This document shows, one piece after another, positions 12,868 through 36,707 of a stretch of 41,923 nucleotides of DNA (positions are counted from its first letter, which is position 1; each line of letters opens with the position of its first letter). The position numbers and the translations under genes were made by a program. The notes beneath the pieces are model-generated. The model saw only the letters and a list, made by a program, of their open reading frames with translations. It was not told where the DNA came from and made no database searches. The stretch comes from an uncultured Alphaproteobacteria bacterium. GTDB taxonomy: Bacteria; Pseudomonadota; Alphaproteobacteria; CAAHEQ01; UBA3637. The stretch lies in contig CALXUD010000004.1 in NCBI GenBank assembly GCA_944391585.1, forward strand, positions 1 to 41,923, read 5' to 3'.

Positions 12868-13015
12868 ATTGCACCTTATATTGAAAATTGCTATAAGAAA
12901 GTTTGAAAAAATCATATAAGGCATGGATATAAAAGATAACTTTTTGTTATTTATAAAGTATGCGTTAATCGTTATATTAGTTGTGTTTTTTATATTTAAA
13001 GAAAGGAAAAATGAA

Positions 13016-13480
13016 GTGAAAATTCAGCACAATTTACTAAGGAAAAAAGAGTTTGGTCGAAGTATGGTTGAGATGTTGGGAGTTTTAGCAATTATCGGGG
13101 TGTTATCCGTTGGCGGAATTGCTGGATATCGATATGCGATGACACAACATAAACTAAATCAATTATTTTATGATATTGAAATTGAGCGTGTTGCTGCGCT
13201 AGAAGAAATGAATAAAGAAAATCCAACCAGTTATGTCTCTGAAACGAAAAATAGTGGAGAATTTATAATGATTCCAAGCTGTTTAAGATGGTCGATGGCT
13301 TTGGAAAAATGTTTTGCTTTAAAATTTTACATTAAAGATCCAGATGTTTGTGAAGCTTTTAAAAAACAAGCCCCTGACAATTGGGTGCTAGTCCATCAAA
13401 ATACTCCTCCGTTCCCTATAAAACAAATTATGTCTTGTGATAATTTACCTACAGAGATTATGATGGGTTTTTCGCGATGA
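13016..13480 (+). CDS. Type IV prepilin-like / pseudopilin-like protein
   Basis: The product carries a class III (prepilin) leader: a short basic stretch ending RKKEFG, then R-S-M-V-E with Glu at +5, and a hydrophobic helix LGVLAIIGVLSVGGIAGY. Such proteins are cut by a prepilin peptidase and assemble into pili or secretion pseudopili. I prefer the GTG at 13016 because AAAGGA lies eight bases ahead and it yields a normal 14-residue leader. An in-frame ATG at 12923 would add an extra membrane helix of 31 residues and has only a poorly placed AAGG. The mature domain of about 140 residues contains five Cys, including C-x8-C, that could form disulfides. No pilus assembly genes are in the window, so this is an orphan. 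The 3' side may be degraded (see findings). Confidence 0.75.
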   Translation: MKIQHNLLRKKEFGRSMVEMLGVLAIIGVLSVGGIAGYRYAMTQHKLNQLFYDIEIERVAALEEMNKENPTSYVSETKNSGEFIMIPSCLRWSMALEKCFALKFYIKDPDVCEAFKKQAPDNWVLVHQNTPPFPIKQIMSCDNLPTEIMMGFSR

Positions 13481-14691: not shown

Positions 14692-15774
14692 CTATAATTC
14701 TTCGGCTTTATTGAGCCATTCTTTGGCTTGATCAGCGTGGTGATATCCATCCCCTTCAATTTTTGCCATCATTAATGCAACTTGTTGTGTTAAAGGATAA
14801 GCATGTAAATATACATCCAAATTTTCTTTTGCCAAAGCCCATTCACCGATTTTAGTGGCGTAATCGGATAAAGCTAACAAATATAGACCGCCAGACTGAT
14901 TAGATGAAACAAATTTTTCAATCAGTTTTGTTTGTTTTTTTAAAGGAAGGGTGGATATTGTTTTTTGGAAAGCTTCATACACATCCCAATCCGGTGTTAA
15001 ATGCCATGCTTTTGACAAAATATCGGGTGCTTTTTTGGGGGCCGCCTTGGCATAGGCTAAAGCCATCAGAGGATTATCAGGCATCAAGCTAAAAGCTTCT
15101 TTATATTGCTTGAGTTGGAATAAAATCTCGGCTTTTTTGCGTGTATAAGACTCTCTTTGAATCCATTTTCTTTTAGATAACATTTCTAATGTTTTTAGCG
15201 CTTCTTGAGGATTATTTTGCATTAATTGTAAATTTAATAGTTCATTAAAAATCCATGAAACATTTGGATATTCTTTTGCAGCACTATCTAAAAGTTTTTC
15301 TTGAAGATTTAAATCGCCTTGTGCTTGCGCTTCTTGGATTAAGCCACGAAAACCGGCTAATTTTGTTTGCGGGTATTGCAACAGTTGTTCAAAAACCTCA
15401 TGAGAAGGATGGAAAAGTGCTTCAACCAACAAAGGGTCAAGTGTATCTTTTTGGCAAAATGTTTTTTTTAGCTTTAAAATTTGATCTTGATGTGTGTCAT
15501 CTTGATCCAAAACAGTAGTCAAAATCAATTGCCAGAAATTTGTTTTTTGATGCGCGTTTTTTAATGTTTGATGTGTGCGATAATTTTGAAGCCAATGCCA
15601 TGGTTTTTTGAATAAACGTAATATATAAAATAAAATAAGCAAGAAGGCAATTAATAAAAGAGCCGACAGAGAAATTTCAAATCCGAAAGCAGAAATATGC
15701 ATCATCCATAAACCGTTGGCACTAAAATAAAGACCAATAATAATTAAAGTAATAGTTAAAAGAAATTTCCACAT
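14692..15774 (-). CDS. hemY: HemY-like TPR membrane protein
   Basis: This matches the HemY N-terminal family: two hydrophobic helices at the very N-terminus (LLTITLIIIGLYFSANGLW and a second at residues 33-52) followed by a helical tetratricopeptide-like domain to the C-terminus. The family is widespread next to heme genes in Proteobacteria, but it is not an enzyme of protoporphyrinogen oxidation and its exact role is unclear. Length 360 is shorter than the 400-500 usual in relatives. It starts one base after the stop of the Mic60-like gene, so the pair is one operon. In related bacteria hemC/hemD come first; they are absent here, and a divergent unrelated gene sits upstream. Confidence 0.8.
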   Translation of the reverse strand: MWKFLLTITLIIIGLYFSANGLWMMHISAFGFEISLSALLLIAFLLILFYILRLFKKPWHWLQNYRTHQTLKNAHQKTNFWQLILTTVLDQDDTHQDQILKLKKTFCQKDTLDPLLVEALFHPSHEVFEQLLQYPQTKLAGFRGLIQEAQAQGDLNLQEKLLDSAAKEYPNVSWIFNELLNLQLMQNNPQEALKTLEMLSKRKWIQRESYTRKKAEILFQLKQYKEAFSLMPDNPLMALAYAKAAPKKAPDILSKAWHLTPDWDVYEAFQKTISTLPLKKQTKLIEKFVSSNQSGGLYLLALSDYATKIGEWALAKENLDVYLHAYPLTQQVALMMAKIEGDGYHHADQAKEWLNKAEEL

Positions 15775-15775
15775 C

Positions 15776-16786
15776 TTAAACTCCTGTTTTTAAAATCAAA
15801 TCGTCCAACATTTTTTTTGCTTCAATATATTGTTCTGCATATTGAATATAAGGATGCATTTCTTTCTGGCTTAATGGCGGTAATTGTTGTAATAGCCGAA
15901 GTGTTTCTTCAATTTGTTTATCTTCTAAAGCTAATTGAGCATGATCTAGAATATTTTCCACCCGTTCTTCTGCCGGACTTAGATTCCGCACTTGAACAAG
16001 AGAGAGGAAAAAGCTCTTCATATATCCTTTCCAGGAAGGATCTAATTCCCGATAAAATACACGTAAGGCCTTGGTTTTATTTTGTTGAAAAATGCTTTCT
16101 AATTCGCTATAAACTGGCTTTGTTTGAAGACAAAAACTGGATAAAGCAGCAGCAATTTTTTGAGCTTCAGTAGGTTGAACACTCCCCATCGCTTGTTGGA
16201 AAGAATGCGTGCAAGAGCGTCCTAACATAAAATCATCGCGTAAAGCAATTAACAAAGCATGTGTTTGTGTTGATTGTTTAGAAAGTTCTTGTGTTCGTGA
16301 TTGTTCTTCTTCTGATGGAGTATCCATAGAAGAATTATCCGATGACTTAGGATTGATTGATGTAAGATTTAAAGGCTGTGTATGGTTAATATCAATCTCA
16401 TTATCCAACGGGTTAATGTTCATTTCTGTGGAGGGTGAGGAGGAAAGGGGCGTATTTTCCACAGACTCTATTAGGGATATATTTGTTTTCTCTGGTTCTT
16501 CAGGAAGTATAGAAGCAGGTTGGTTTTGCTCTAAAACAGGGACTAAAGACATTAAGGGTTCTTGTGTTCCCGACATATGAGGTTGTTGTGTGGGAATAGA
16601 AGATAAGTTTTTTGTTTCCACATTTTTTATTTTTTGAATAAGAGAAAATGTTTGGTTTTGCGCTTCCTCATCTTTTAAATAAAAAAATATAATTCCACAT
16701 GCTGCAATTAAAAGAAAAAAAATGAAAAACAAGCGTTTTCCTTTTGAGGGAAATGTGGGATTTTTTTTGGCCGTTGAATCTGACAT
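15776..16786 (-). CDS. Mic60/mitofilin-like inner membrane protein
   Basis: I assign this to the bacterial Mic60 (COG4223-type) family by context and architecture. It has a cytoplasmic basic N-terminus, one membrane helix at about residues 18-40 (LFFIFFLLIAACGIIFFYL), a long low-complexity Ser/Thr/Glu/Asn/Pro linker to about residue 165, and a helical C-terminal domain. The last 60 residues (ALEDKQIEETLRLLQQLPP, then YIQYAEQYIEAKKMLDDLI) resemble the mitofilin signature. It sits directly before hemY, the standard place for alphaproteobacterial mic60. Family members shape inner-membrane invaginations and touch outer-membrane proteins. At 336 residues it is short and has no long coiled coil. 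AAAGGAG precedes the ATG. Motif similarity is modest, so the family call is probable rather than certain. Confidence 0.65.
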   Translation of the reverse strand: MSDSTAKKNPTFPSKGKRLFFIFFLLIAACGIIFFYLKDEEAQNQTFSLIQKIKNVETKNLSSIPTQQPHMSGTQEPLMSLVPVLEQNQPASILPEEPEKTNISLIESVENTPLSSSPSTEMNINPLDNEIDINHTQPLNLTSINPKSSDNSSMDTPSEEEQSRTQELSKQSTQTHALLIALRDDFMLGRSCTHSFQQAMGSVQPTEAQKIAAALSSFCLQTKPVYSELESIFQQNKTKALRVFYRELDPSWKGYMKSFFLSLVQVRNLSPAEERVENILDHAQLALEDKQIEETLRLLQQLPPLSQKEMHPYIQYAEQYIEAKKMLDDLILKTGV

Positions 16787-16808: not shown

Positions 16809-16838
16809 AGTATAGGTATTTTTAAGAGAAAAAATCAA
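16809..16838 (-). promoter_or_regulatory. Predicted promoter of the Mic60-like/hemY operon
   Basis: On the minus strand TTGATT (16838-16833) and TATACT (16814-16809) are 18 bases apart, giving a leader of about 15 bases with the AAAGGAG site of the first gene. Confidence 0.5.
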
Positions 16839-16912: not shown

Positions 16913-17422
16913 ATGACGACAGTTTCTGATGTAGATATTTTGCAAATTCCTCTTTATGTCTTGGTTCAACGTATTTTGAGCCGAAGTGATTTAACTTTTG
17001 GCCAAATTACGCAAGCATTTTCTGCTATTAAAGATGAAAAAGATCCTTTAACATTACGTGAAAAATTGATTTCTTTTGCTCTAAATTCGAAAGTAAAAAA
17101 AAGACGTTTGATACCTGTGGTTGCTCAAAAACAAGATTTAGAGTTAAAGAAAATGGCTCTGAATGTTTTACACTCCGATTTTCATCCTGATGTTTTTAAA
17201 ACAAAAGCGTCTATTTCTTTCTATTGGCTTTTGCATCATTTGTCCTATCCAGAAAAACGAAAAGGACAATGTCCGTTTTTTGAAAAGGGGCCTTCTTTTT
17301 ATTCATTCGCTCAATTTTTGGAGCAAGTTCAGAAAAGTTATGAAAAGCAGGAAGCAGCAAAAGAACATAAGCGTTTAATGCGTTTGCTGGATCGCAAGAT
17401 TCCACGACCGCGTGAGCGGTAG
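16913..17422 (+). CDS. Hypothetical protein
   Basis: I do not recognise this 169-residue soluble protein. It has no signal peptide or membrane helix, is helical in appearance and becomes strongly basic at the C-terminus (EHKRLMRLLDRKIPRPRER), which might bind nucleic acid. The first 100 residues contain short helical repeats (DPLTLREKLISFALN, DLELKKMALNVLHSD). The start has no ribosome-binding site and sits at the expected transcription start, suggesting a leaderless message. It is divergent from the Mic60-like operon and precedes proS by 63 bases, possibly in one transcription unit. Confidence 0.75.
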   Translation: MTTVSDVDILQIPLYVLVQRILSRSDLTFGQITQAFSAIKDEKDPLTLREKLISFALNSKVKKRRLIPVVAQKQDLELKKMALNVLHSDFHPDVFKTKASISFYWLLHHLSYPEKRKGQCPFFEKGPSFYSFAQFLEQVQKSYEKQEAAKEHKRLMRLLDRKIPRPRER

Positions 17423-32647: not shown

Positions 32648-33148
32648 ATGGTAGAAGAAAAACCAGCCAGTGTAAATGAAACAAAGGAAAAAGTTGAAAA
32701 ATTATTGGTTAAATGGAAGTCAAAACGTGGTTCTTTGATTATGGCCTTGCATGAAATTCAAGGAGTATTCGGCTTTGTTCCATGGAGTGCGGTTGAAATT
32801 GTTTCTCGTGAATTGAATATTCCGGTTTCTCAAATTTATGCGGTTTTAACTTTTTATAACTATTTTAAGCTTTCAGCTCCCGGAAAGGTTATTATTTCTT
32901 TGTGCGATGGAACGGCTTGTCATATTAAGGGAGCTCCTTCGTTGATTGATGCTATTTATAATTGTTTGGGGATTAAGGATGGAGAAACAACGGCAGATGG
33001 TGTATTCCATTTGCAAATTGTGCGCTGTCTTGGATGTTGTGGTTTAGCTCCGGTTGTTGTCGTAAATGGGAAAACATATCGAAAAGTTGTTCCAGCGGAC
33101 ATTCCTAAAATTATTGCTGAATGGCGTTCAAGTATTACAAAGAAATAG
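32648..33148 (+). CDS. hydC: NAD-linked [FeFe]-hydrogenase, NuoE-like [2Fe-2S] subunit (HydC)
   Basis: This 166-residue protein is the thioredoxin-fold [2Fe-2S] subunit that carries electrons between the flavin subunit and the hydrogenase. The cluster ligands are C86 and C91 in CDGTACHIKG and C127 and C131 in CLGCCGLAP (C-x4-C and C-x3-C). The helical N-terminal part (KRGSLIMALHEIQGVFGFVP) matches NuoE/HydC/HndA. It is not from complex I: the next two genes encode the NuoF-like and H-cluster subunits of a soluble NAD-dependent hydrogenase. AGGAGG is present before the ATG. An adjoining C130 adds a third Cys to the second pair. Confidence 0.93.
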   Translation: MVEEKPASVNETKEKVEKLLVKWKSKRGSLIMALHEIQGVFGFVPWSAVEIVSRELNIPVSQIYAVLTFYNYFKLSAPGKVIISLCDGTACHIKGAPSLIDAIYNCLGIKDGETTADGVFHLQIVRCLGCCGLAPVVVVNGKTYRKVVPADIPKIIAEWRSSITKK

Positions 33149-33157
33149 GAGGAACGG

Positions 33158-34945
33158 ATGGTGGAATTAACACAAGAACAAATTGAAAAATTAAAACAGT
33201 TAGGGCGCACTCAAAAAGAAAATCTGCTCAAATTGGGAGAGGAGTTTGTTCAAAATCATAAAAAATATATTGCTTCAATTTATACCTGTAATGCAACGGG
33301 ATGTCATTCAGGGGGTGCTGGTAATGTTATAGACGCATTTAAAGAAAGTTTAGAGACATTTGGTTTACAAGATAAGGTGCGTATGGTGGCAACGGGGTGT
33401 ATGGGATTGTGTGCCTGTGGACCATTGGCAAGAGTTGAAATTAAAGGGCGAGATCCATTTTTATATCAACAAGTTACCCCAGATATTGCTCGTTTAATTG
33501 TGTCGGAGCATATTGTGCCGACACTAAAAAAAGATCCTTCAGAACCGTTAAAATTATCAACCTATTTAAAGAATAAAGAATTGTCATTAAATTTACCTTT
33601 TTTTACAAAACAGAAAAAAGTGGTTTTAAAAAATTTAGGGCATTCTGATCCTGAAGATTTAGGAGAATATGTTGCCGAAGGTGGTTATCAAGCCTTAATG
33701 AAATGTTTAGAAATGAAACCTGAAGAAGTTATACAAATCATTAAGGATAGTGGTTTGCGAGGTCGTGGAGGAGCAGGTTTCCCAACAGGTGTAAAATGGG
33801 AAATGTTGGCAAAAGCCCCTTTGGTAGATGGAGAAAAATTTGTCGTATGTAATGGCGATGAAGGTGATCCTGGGGCTTATATGGATTCGTGTATTCTAGG
33901 TGGTGGAGCACATCAGGTTTTAGAAGGAATGATGATTGCGGCTTATGCAACAGGAGCAACGTCCGGCTGGTTTTATATCCGTGCGGAATATCCTTTGGCA
34001 TTACAGCGAGTGGAATTGGCGATTAAACAAGCCAAAAAATATGGTATTTTAGGTCGTCGTATTTTCGGTTCGGATTTTGATTTTATGGCGGAATTGCGTT
34101 ATGGAGCAGGGGCTTTTGTTTGCGGAGAGGAAACAGCATTGCTGGAATCACTGGAAGGAAAACGTGGTACACCGCATCCGCGTCCTCCGTATCCGACTCA
34201 AAAAGGATTATTCGGAAAACCAACTGCTATCAATAATGTTGAGACACTTGCAAATATTGCTCCAATTATTTTACATGGTCCCAAATGGTTTCAAAAGATG
34301 GGAACAAAAACATCAAAAGGAACAAAAGTTTTTGCTTTGACCGGAAAAGTTCAACATTCAGGTTTAGTAGAAGTTCCAATGGGAACGAAAGTAAGTGAAA
34401 TGGTTAATGAAATTGGAGGGGGGACAAGCTCAGGAAAACCATTTAAAGCCGTTCAAACGGGAGGTCCTTCCGGAGGTGTTATTCCAGCATCACATTTAGA
34501 TTTACCATTATGTTATGAAGAGTTGAAAAAAATCGGTTCTATGATGGGATCTGGTGGTATGATTGTGATGGATTATGATGATAGCATGGTTGAAATTGCA
34601 AAATTTTATTTAAATTTTACGGTTGATGAAAGTTGTGGTAAATGCGCTCCGTGTCGAATTGGAGGTTATCAAATGTTGCAGTTGGTTAAGAAAATTGCAG
34701 ATAAGCGCGGATCGGCAGCGGATTTGGAAAAAATTAAAGAAATTGGTTCTGCGATGAAGCGTGGGGCTTTGTGTGGTTTAGGACAAACAGCTCCGAATCC
34801 GGTTTTATCTACAATTAAATTTTTTAAAGAAGAATATGATGCCTTGATTCAGGAAGCTGAAACTAAACGTCAGGCACAACAAAAATTAAAAGGCGAGATG
34901 AAACAACTGGAAGCTCAAATGAATGCACTGAATAAAGAGGGATAA
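33158..34945 (+). CDS. hydB: NAD-linked [FeFe]-hydrogenase, NuoF-like flavoprotein subunit (HydB)
   Basis: The diaphorase subunit binds FMN and NAD(H). It has an N-terminal [2Fe-2S] thioredoxin-like domain (C44, C49, C81, C85), then the NuoF core from about residue 165 with the GLRGRGGAGFPTGVKW FMN loop, the NADH loop (ICNGDEGDPG-type, here VCNGDEGDPGAYMD), and the [4Fe-4S] ligands SCGKCAPC around residue 493 plus a later Cys in GALCGLGQ. It ends with a Gln/Lys/Glu coiled-coil tail after FKEEYDALI. Classic HydB proteins continue there with a two-[4Fe-4S] ferredoxin domain (CxxCxxC repeats), which is missing. This may change its coupling to ferredoxin. AGGAGG precedes the start. Confidence 0.93.
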   Translation: MVELTQEQIEKLKQLGRTQKENLLKLGEEFVQNHKKYIASIYTCNATGCHSGGAGNVIDAFKESLETFGLQDKVRMVATGCMGLCACGPLARVEIKGRDPFLYQQVTPDIARLIVSEHIVPTLKKDPSEPLKLSTYLKNKELSLNLPFFTKQKKVVLKNLGHSDPEDLGEYVAEGGYQALMKCLEMKPEEVIQIIKDSGLRGRGGAGFPTGVKWEMLAKAPLVDGEKFVVCNGDEGDPGAYMDSCILGGGAHQVLEGMMIAAYATGATSGWFYIRAEYPLALQRVELAIKQAKKYGILGRRIFGSDFDFMAELRYGAGAFVCGEETALLESLEGKRGTPHPRPPYPTQKGLFGKPTAINNVETLANIAPIILHGPKWFQKMGTKTSKGTKVFALTGKVQHSGLVEVPMGTKVSEMVNEIGGGTSSGKPFKAVQTGGPSGGVIPASHLDLPLCYEELKKIGSMMGSGGMIVMDYDDSMVEIAKFYLNFTVDESCGKCAPCRIGGYQMLQLVKKIADKRGSAADLEKIKEIGSAMKRGALCGLGQTAPNPVLSTIKFFKEEYDALIQEAETKRQAQQKLKGEMKQLEAQMNALNKEG

Positions 34946-34946
34946 T

Positions 34947-36707
34947 ATGGAAAAACAAGTAAATGTTATTATAGATGGTGTTAAAGTTAGTGTTCCTGAA
35001 GGGACAACCATTTTAGATGCTGCACGTAAAATTCAAGTGGAAATCCCAACCTTATGTTATCATCCGGATTTGCATCCACGTGCTTCTTGTGGTATTTGTG
35101 TTGTTAAAGTGGGTGGAAAAATGTTGCGCGCTTGCTGCACACCGGTAGAAGAGGGAATGGATATTATTACCCGCGATCCGGAAATCATTGAAACAAGACG
35201 CACGATTTTAAAGCTAGAGCTTTCACATCATCCGCAAGAATGTTTAACTTGTATTAGAAATGAATCTTGTGAATTACAACATTTAACATCTATTTTTGGA
35301 ATTCGGGAGCGTGGTTTTAATAACATTACCCCACAATTACCCAAAGATGATAGCACAAAATGTATTGTTTTTGATCCACGTAAGTGTATTTTATGCGGTC
35401 GCTGTATTGAGGTCTGTCAAACTGTTCAAAAAGTATCTGCTTTGGCTTTTTTAAATCGCAGTATTGATACACAAGTAGCTCCTGCAGGAGATTTGCCATT
35501 AGCCGATACGCCGTGCATAAAATGTGGACAATGTACAGCACATTGTCCGACAGGAGCATTAACTGAATATGATAGTTCTGAAGAAGTTTGGAAAATGCTA
35601 GAAAATCCAGATTATTATACAGTTGTTCAAATTGCACCGGCGGTACGTGTTTCTTTGGGTGAAGCTTTTGGATTAGAGCCAGGAACATTAACGACTGGAA
35701 AAATTTATGCTGCATTACGTCGAATGGGTTTTAAAGCAATTTTTGATACAAATTTTGGTGCCGATGTGACTATTATGGAAGAGGCAAGTGAGTTTGTGGA
35801 ACGCTTTACCAAAAATCCAAAGTCATTACCTTTGATTACAAGTTGTTGTCCGGCTTGGGTAGATTATATGGAAAAATTTTTCCCGGATATGATTCCTTAT
35901 TTCTCAACATGTAAATCTCCACATGCAATTGTTGGAGCATTATCAAAGACTTATTATGCAGATAAAATAAAAATTCCTGTGGAAAAAATGCGCGTTGTTT
36001 CCATTATGCCTTGTACAGCAAAAAAATTTGAAATTATTCGTTCAAAAGATATGTTCTCCAGTGGTTTTCAAGATGTAGATGTGACATTAACAACGCGTGA
36101 AATCGCTCGTATGATTAAGCAAGCTGGGATTGATTTTGTTAATTTGCCAGAAGAAAAAGCTGATAATCCATTGGGGGAATACACAGGTGCTGGAACGGTA
36201 TTTGGTTTTTCCGGCGGGGTGATGGAAGCGGCGTTGCGTACGGCACATTATCTGATTACCGGTAAAGAAATGGCGGATAAAAATTTGGAAATTAAGCCAA
36301 TTTTGGGTTTAGATAAAGGTATTAAGGAAATGACAATGACAATTCAAGGTCATGAGATTCGGATTGCTGTTGCTCATGGAATTGGCCATGTTGGGGACTT
36401 ATTAACACATATTCGTGAAAAATTGGCACGTGGAGAAGAAACGCCGTATCACTTTATTGAGGTGATGGCATGTTCTGGTGGATGTGTTGGAGGTGGAGGG
36501 CAACCACGTGGAGTCACAAATGAAGTACGTAAAGAACGGATGAAGGGGTTAATGAAAGATGATAAACAATCTCAGAAACGGTGCTCTCATCAAAATAAAG
36601 ACGTGCAAAAATTGTATAAAACCTTTTTGAAAAAGCCATTGAGTAAAAAGGCTCATGAGTTATTACACACGCATTATATAGCACGCCCGTTATATAAGAA
36701 AGATTAG
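34947..36707 (+). CDS. hydA: [FeFe]-hydrogenase catalytic subunit (HydA)
   Basis: This subunit makes or consumes H2 at the H-cluster. In order: an N-terminal [2Fe-2S] plant ferredoxin-like domain (CYHPDLHPRASCGIC and ACCTP), a His-type [4Fe-4S] (HHPQECLTCIRNESCELQ), two [4Fe-4S] (CILCGRCIEVC and CIKCGQCTAHCPTG), then the H-cluster motifs TSCCPAW (298-304), MPCTAKKFE (from 354) and MACSGGCVGGGGQP (from 507). The L3 motif has S510 where P is usual (MACPGGC). The C-terminal 60 residues form the small-subunit-like tail. At 586 residues it is an M3-type enzyme. It begins one base after hydB. Maturases HydE, HydF and HydG are not in the window but are needed for activity. Confidence 0.95.
   Translation: MEKQVNVIIDGVKVSVPEGTTILDAARKIQVEIPTLCYHPDLHPRASCGICVVKVGGKMLRACCTPVEEGMDIITRDPEIIETRRTILKLELSHHPQECLTCIRNESCELQHLTSIFGIRERGFNNITPQLPKDDSTKCIVFDPRKCILCGRCIEVCQTVQKVSALAFLNRSIDTQVAPAGDLPLADTPCIKCGQCTAHCPTGALTEYDSSEEVWKMLENPDYYTVVQIAPAVRVSLGEAFGLEPGTLTTGKIYAALRRMGFKAIFDTNFGADVTIMEEASEFVERFTKNPKSLPLITSCCPAWVDYMEKFFPDMIPYFSTCKSPHAIVGALSKTYYADKIKIPVEKMRVVSIMPCTAKKFEIIRSKDMFSSGFQDVDVTLTTREIARMIKQAGIDFVNLPEEKADNPLGEYTGAGTVFGFSGGVMEAALRTAHYLITGKEMADKNLEIKPILGLDKGIKEMTMTIQGHEIRIAVAHGIGHVGDLLTHIREKLARGEETPYHFIEVMACSGGCVGGGGQPRGVTNEVRKERMKGLMKDDKQSQKRCSHQNKDVQKLYKTFLKKPLSKKAHELLHTHYIARPLYKKD

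Follow-up and report, generated by a model that had tools for sequence, protein, structure and literature searches.

A Mic60-like and HemY-like gene pair is kept in small alphaproteobacterial genomes without the heme synthesis genes tested

Mic60 and HemY are a known pair of alphaproteobacterial proteins; the new observation is that the pair is kept in a family in which the heme genes tested are missing. The window, i.e. the whole stretch of DNA analysed, is a contig of 41.9 kb from a draft genome of 1.08 Mb in 74 contigs, which is 84% complete, is called G000 here and is counted among the 33 genomes of its family. Two neighbouring reading frames on its reverse strand, proposed as Mic60-like and HemY-like in an earlier note on this DNA, were confirmed to lie 1 bp apart. 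The first runs from 16786 to 15776 (minus strand) and encodes 336 amino acids; its assignment uses the open reading frame, family homologues and hhalign to canonical Mic60. The second runs from 15774 to 14692 (minus strand) and encodes a tetratricopeptide repeat (TPR) protein of 360 amino acids, assigned by the open reading frame and an alignment of 34 rows. By profile comparison the two are diverged orthologues of alphaproteobacterial Mic60 and of TPR-type HemY, respectively.

The two genes are adjacent in 32 of the 33 family genomes, at 30 loci with gaps ranging from -8 to +12 bp and in addition in G007 and G016; the exception is G032, which is in 310 contigs. The reading frames of both genes are intact in nearly all members of the family. 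HemB, HemC and the ferrochelatase HemH were found in none of the 33 genomes, G000 included, in line with the lack of heme synthesis which the earlier note had considered for this lineage; the majority of the other genomes sampled from the class have them. LpxC, which served as completeness control, was detected in 32 of the 33, so that the family genomes are complete enough for such absence counts. The position of mic60 between hemD and hemY, usual in Alphaproteobacteria, agrees with the published order HemC-HemD-mitofilin-HemY (PMC7641849) and with the sampled heme-making relatives (e.g. G035, G036, G041, and G047), where HemC is found a few kb from HemY on the same contig. As genomes of 0.9–1.8 Mb which do not carry the heme genes tested have, with hardly an exception, retained the pair, its selected role is unlikely to be heme synthesis, and this retention suggests that the name HemY misleads. 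The part of the literature on Mic60, mitofilin, and HemY which was surveyed did not describe the pair in any organism lacking heme synthesis.

The name HemY is also used for a Bacillus-type oxidase, which is an unrelated enzyme, other than the TPR-type HemY dealt with here. The window protein remained below cut-off with Pfam HemY_N and with NCBIfam and gave no usable match. Among the 34 aligned family members, HemY_N was called in 24 and TIGR00540 in 29, the invariant HemY residues are preserved across the alignment, and the family profile aligned to E. coli HemY by hhalign with 96.5% over 350 columns, i.e. near full length. Residues 2–37 (15664..15771, minus strand) form an N-terminal helix and a beta-hairpin in an AlphaFold model of low confidence in this part; they are predicted to be a membrane anchor and a periplasmic loop. 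A long helix starts at residue 38 after the hairpin, and residues 93–359 (14698..15498, minus strand) build a TPR superhelix with a pLDDT of about 95. Anchor, hairpin, and superhelix are thus shared with the TPR-type HemY proteins (PF07219 HemY_N, TIGR00540). LapA had been considered as a source of the N-terminus and was discarded, with 26% by profile and no Pfam LapA match.

The family differs from TPR-type HemY in having no hemC/hemD operon, and in a C-terminal CxxC...CxxC zinc ribbon which is absent from the C-terminus of E. coli HemY. This ribbon occurs in 33 of the 34 aligned proteins, the window copy alone being without it, and PF18073 (Zn_ribbon_LapB) was called in 13 of the 34. The window protein ends just short of the ribbon position. 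A frameshift hiding the ribbon was rejected, since no CxxC and no remnant was found downstream in any frame. As the ribbon is lost, the function of HemY may be altered in the window species.

The ribbon leads to an alternative in which HemY would be a LapB-like adaptor with a rubredoxin-type ribbon, bringing substrate to a membrane protease and thereby setting lipopolysaccharide (LpxC) levels; its partner in the periplasm would be Mic60. LapB is likewise a membrane-anchored TPR protein with such a ribbon, and the LapB structure 7t6d gave the best TM-score for HemY among the matches listed (0.59 of the query as compared to at most 0.42 for non-LapB structures). The HemY profile aligned to E. 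coli LapB with 92.2% (E value 5.7e-7), and the 210 aligned columns take in the ribbon. The PF18073 calls favour the same reading, and LpxC itself is present in the family. Ribbon matches within the family fell mostly in frames of HemY length and in longer frames, and judged by their sequence the three longer frames inspected resemble RadA. TPR similarity is common, however, the ribbon search was no dedicated LapB search, and the profile score is lower for LapB than for E. coli HemY. Moreover, E. coli has LapB in addition to HemY, and the window HemY does without the ribbon altogether. In the four family members examined, LpxC has a tail unlike that of E. coli, and LpxC of A. tumefaciens and R. 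capsulatus carries no FtsH degron according to a review (PMC12444477). These tails, the review of LpxC control, and the lost ribbon together argue against an E. coli-like LapB mechanism here, and the alternative as a whole is considered unlikely, while the likeness of HemY to LapB suggests a more specific adaptor role for the protein.

It could also be imagined that the lineage scavenges heme from outside and that HemY and Mic60 serve the assembly of heme proteins. HemY owes its name to its place in hem operons (PMC7641849), and a missing ferrochelatase fits imported heme and a heme-independent role alike. Cytochrome bd subunit I was detected in none of the 33 genomes, however, and the window encodes [FeFe]-hydrogenase metabolism: NuoE-like, NuoF-like, and [FeFe]-hydrogenase genes stand in a row at 32648-36707 (plus strand), the hydrogenase and NuoF domains being confirmed by Pfam and the NuoE-like one recognised by eye. 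From the hydrogenase genes in the window and the missing cytochrome subunit the family is probably anaerobic. A role in handling imported heme is regarded as improbable, a little more so than the LapB-like adaptor.

Identification of the Mic60-like protein required the family as well, because a direct scan of the window sequence against Pfam Mitofilin gave no match and the identity of the family members to it is 13–26%, indicating fast divergence. Taken by themselves these two results would also fit an unrelated membrane protein whose helical or coiled-coil likeness to Mic60 arose by chance. Homologues were found by sequence in 29 of the 33 genomes, the window's own included, and the alignment of these 29 proteins was turned into a profile and compared by hhalign with canonical Mic60, represented by ten proteins of other families in the class (G034 among the ten). 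The profile search suggested by the earlier note, negative for the window sequence alone, was positive at this level, yielding 98.0% (E value 1.5e-13), with 155 columns aligned in the C-terminal mitofilin domain; 20 column-shuffled profiles gave 0.0% and a reversed profile 0.7%. In addition the copy of G018 exceeds the Mitofilin cut-off on its own with 36.5 bits, and the gene order, mic60 before HemY, is the same as in heme-making relatives. Given the profile comparison, the G018 copy, and the gene order, a chance resemblance is held to be very improbable. The family and canonical Mic60 share aromatic residues at F233 and W252, L302, and a basic residue at R267. The first lipid-binding helix of Mic60 is marked by an aromatic residue and an arginine, of which F233 and R267, positions unmapped to the yeast residues, may be the counterparts; F233 is aromatic in 100% of family and 80% of canonical rows, and R267 is basic in 83% and 90%. 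When the Mic60 alignment was used to search PDB sequences, only weak, chance-like matches were returned, and Foldseek with the AlphaFold model found no PDB entry at E <= 0.001 and the MIC60 helical bundle 9qwr only at E 1.3, with the long disordered part of the model lowering whole-chain scores. E. coli HemX, examined as a possible relative of Mic60, scored 0.7% with the family profile and 19.7% with the canonical one, over N-terminal columns only, and is unsupported at single-sequence sensitivity.

That the pair might be a decaying hem-operon remnant under no selection, for which the fast divergence of Mic60, the shortened window HemY, and a broken-up mic60 frame in G027 could be quoted, is hardly credible in view of its adjacency in all but one of these small genomes, the nearly always intact frames, and the preserved invariant residues of HemY. 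In G027 (locus L007; a 68% complete genome) mic60 lies in pieces as open reading frames 834-1238 and 1567-1992, by sequencing error or by real decay.

The architecture of the window protein resembles that of alphaproteobacterial Mic60 (PF09731), with an N-terminal transmembrane helix, a disordered linker, a C-terminal helical mitofilin-like domain, and a position directly upstream of HemY. The transmembrane helix is predicted for residues 18–38 (16673..16735, minus strand) from an AlphaFold helix, hydropathy, and flank charge. Since the residues before it are basic and those after it acidic, the C-terminal part is predicted to be periplasmic. The long disordered linker mentioned in the earlier note was recovered by AlphaFold at residues about 57–158 (16313..16618, minus strand), where pLDDT is mostly below 60, secondary structure is absent, and the family aligns poorly. 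The mitofilin-like helical domain follows at residues 159–335 (15782..16312, minus strand) with pLDDT mostly above 90, and this is the region which aligns to canonical Mic60. It contains Cys192 (16211..16213, minus strand) and Cys219 (16130..16132, minus strand), which pair with each other in the alignment: 22 of the 29 members have both, seven have neither, and a single one never occurs. This pattern is suggestive of a disulfide, although the seven without the pair may share ancestry. The flank charge of the helix, the signal-peptide-like N-termini of some relatives, and the all-or-none cysteine pair point to a periplasmic location of the domain.

Besides the cysteine pair found in most of the family, three features set these proteins apart from canonical alphaproteobacterial Mic60. 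Their gene is not beside hemC or hemD and the heme genes tested are absent, the window protein has no Pfam match, and a strong transmembrane helix is missing in four relatives. The latter, at loci L018, L022, L028, and L029, have signal-peptide-like N-termini and are possibly soluble in the periplasm. A parallel to these four is provided by Mic34 and Mic40 of Euglenozoa, cryptic mitofilin proteins which are not integral to the membrane (PMC12631773). Mic34 and Mic40, in contrast to the proteins described here, are mitochondrial and are not known to have a HemY partner.

The reading preferred here is a heme-independent envelope module consisting of a periplasmic Mic60 arm and a cytosolic HemY adaptor, and is probably correct; the topology, the joint action, and the envelope role in it are inferred. 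An ancestor of the lineage would have lost heme synthesis, and mic60 and hemY would have stayed behind as a two-gene operon. Mic60 would be held by one inner-membrane helix and expose its mitofilin domain to the periplasm on a disordered tether of ~100 residues, where the domain could attach to membrane and to a partner in the outer membrane or periplasm, in a contact-site or curvature function. HemY would be fixed by its N-terminal membrane anchor, and its TPR superhelix, predicted to be cytosolic, would serve this assembly as an adaptor at the inner face. The lasting function of the pair would then be envelope organisation, not heme. Of the joint heme-independent envelope function which the earlier note had put forward, the independence from heme synthesis draws on the retention of the pair without HemB, HemC, and HemH, and the joint action and the envelope role are suggested by adjacency, topology, and fold. 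According to work cited in PMC12631773 and PMC12136173, alphaproteobacterial Mic60 makes contacts between membranes and forms intracytoplasmic membranes; that Mic60 of other organisms touches membrane or a partner in the outer membrane, as proposed here for the periplasmic arm, has been reported in work cited in PMC12631773.

The literature covered discusses bacterial Mic60 as ancestral to the cristae organiser and ties it to bioenergetic membranes. The family described here is a natural experiment separating Mic60 and HemY from heme, and it opens to direct test the role of bacterial Mic60 where no heme-based respiratory membrane has to be shaped. A more far-reaching idea, which is offered tentatively and is rather doubtful, would be that the two proteins constitute one trans-envelope machine, with Mic60 as the membrane-tethering arm in the periplasm and HemY as a LapB-like adaptor in the cytosol. 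Its ancestral alphaproteobacterial job would have been envelope homeostasis, and the connection with heme and respiration, like the later one with mitochondrial cristae, would be secondary.

The situation is not confined to one family. HemB was absent in 38 of 241 sampled alphaproteobacteria, and 21 genomes without a HemB match, not all 38, were taken for a survey of the pair; four of these 21 have HemC. In G034, G053, G067, G096, and G137, which represent five further families and have neither HemB nor HemC, HemY is found with a clear Mic60 upstream. In G081, G111, and G131 HemY is present and the similarity of the upstream protein is too weak for a call. HemY stands without Mic60 in G146, the only HemY-like match in G123 is a weak one, and G074 gave two weak matches which are unlike HemY. 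HemY_N had no match in G043, G049, G056, G094, G113, and G115. As several other HemB-less alphaproteobacteria do without the pair, it is not universally needed. In a quick HemY tree the family rows form one clade with G034, G053, G067, and G096 (SH-aLRT 96), in which many branches are long, G067 falls inside the family rows, and the order is unsure; from this shared clade the loss of heme synthesis there may be old.

The two-gene unit may have its promoter at 16809..16838 (minus strand), with the elements TTGATT-18-TATACT; this is a consensus match only, and matches of this type are no more numerous in the region than in shuffles. A search by tblastn for relatives with conserved order, in stretches found via the neighbouring ProS, detected no pair and no synteny there. 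On the other side of the pair, at 12923-13480 (plus strand), the window carries a frame whose protein shows a pilin-like motif, GRSMVEMLGVLAIIGVLSVGGIAGYRYAM, near the N-terminus, preceded by a hydrophobic stretch, and gives a weak N_methyl match only. The earlier note had pointed to a divergent gene where hemD would be. A divergent gene for 169 amino acids is indeed present at 16913, but the gene upstream of mic60 differs across the family (MreB, SurA/PpiD-like, HlyD-like, or DNA glycosylase), and the 169-residue gene is therefore no conserved replacement of hemD. Envelope genes (MreB, SurA/PpiD-like) adjoin the pair in several genera, and which ones do so varies from genus to genus. An MreB-like frame lies divergently upstream of mic60 at loci L020, L021, L023–L025, and L027, confirmed by Pfam for L020 and L021 and recognised by sequence likeness for the others.
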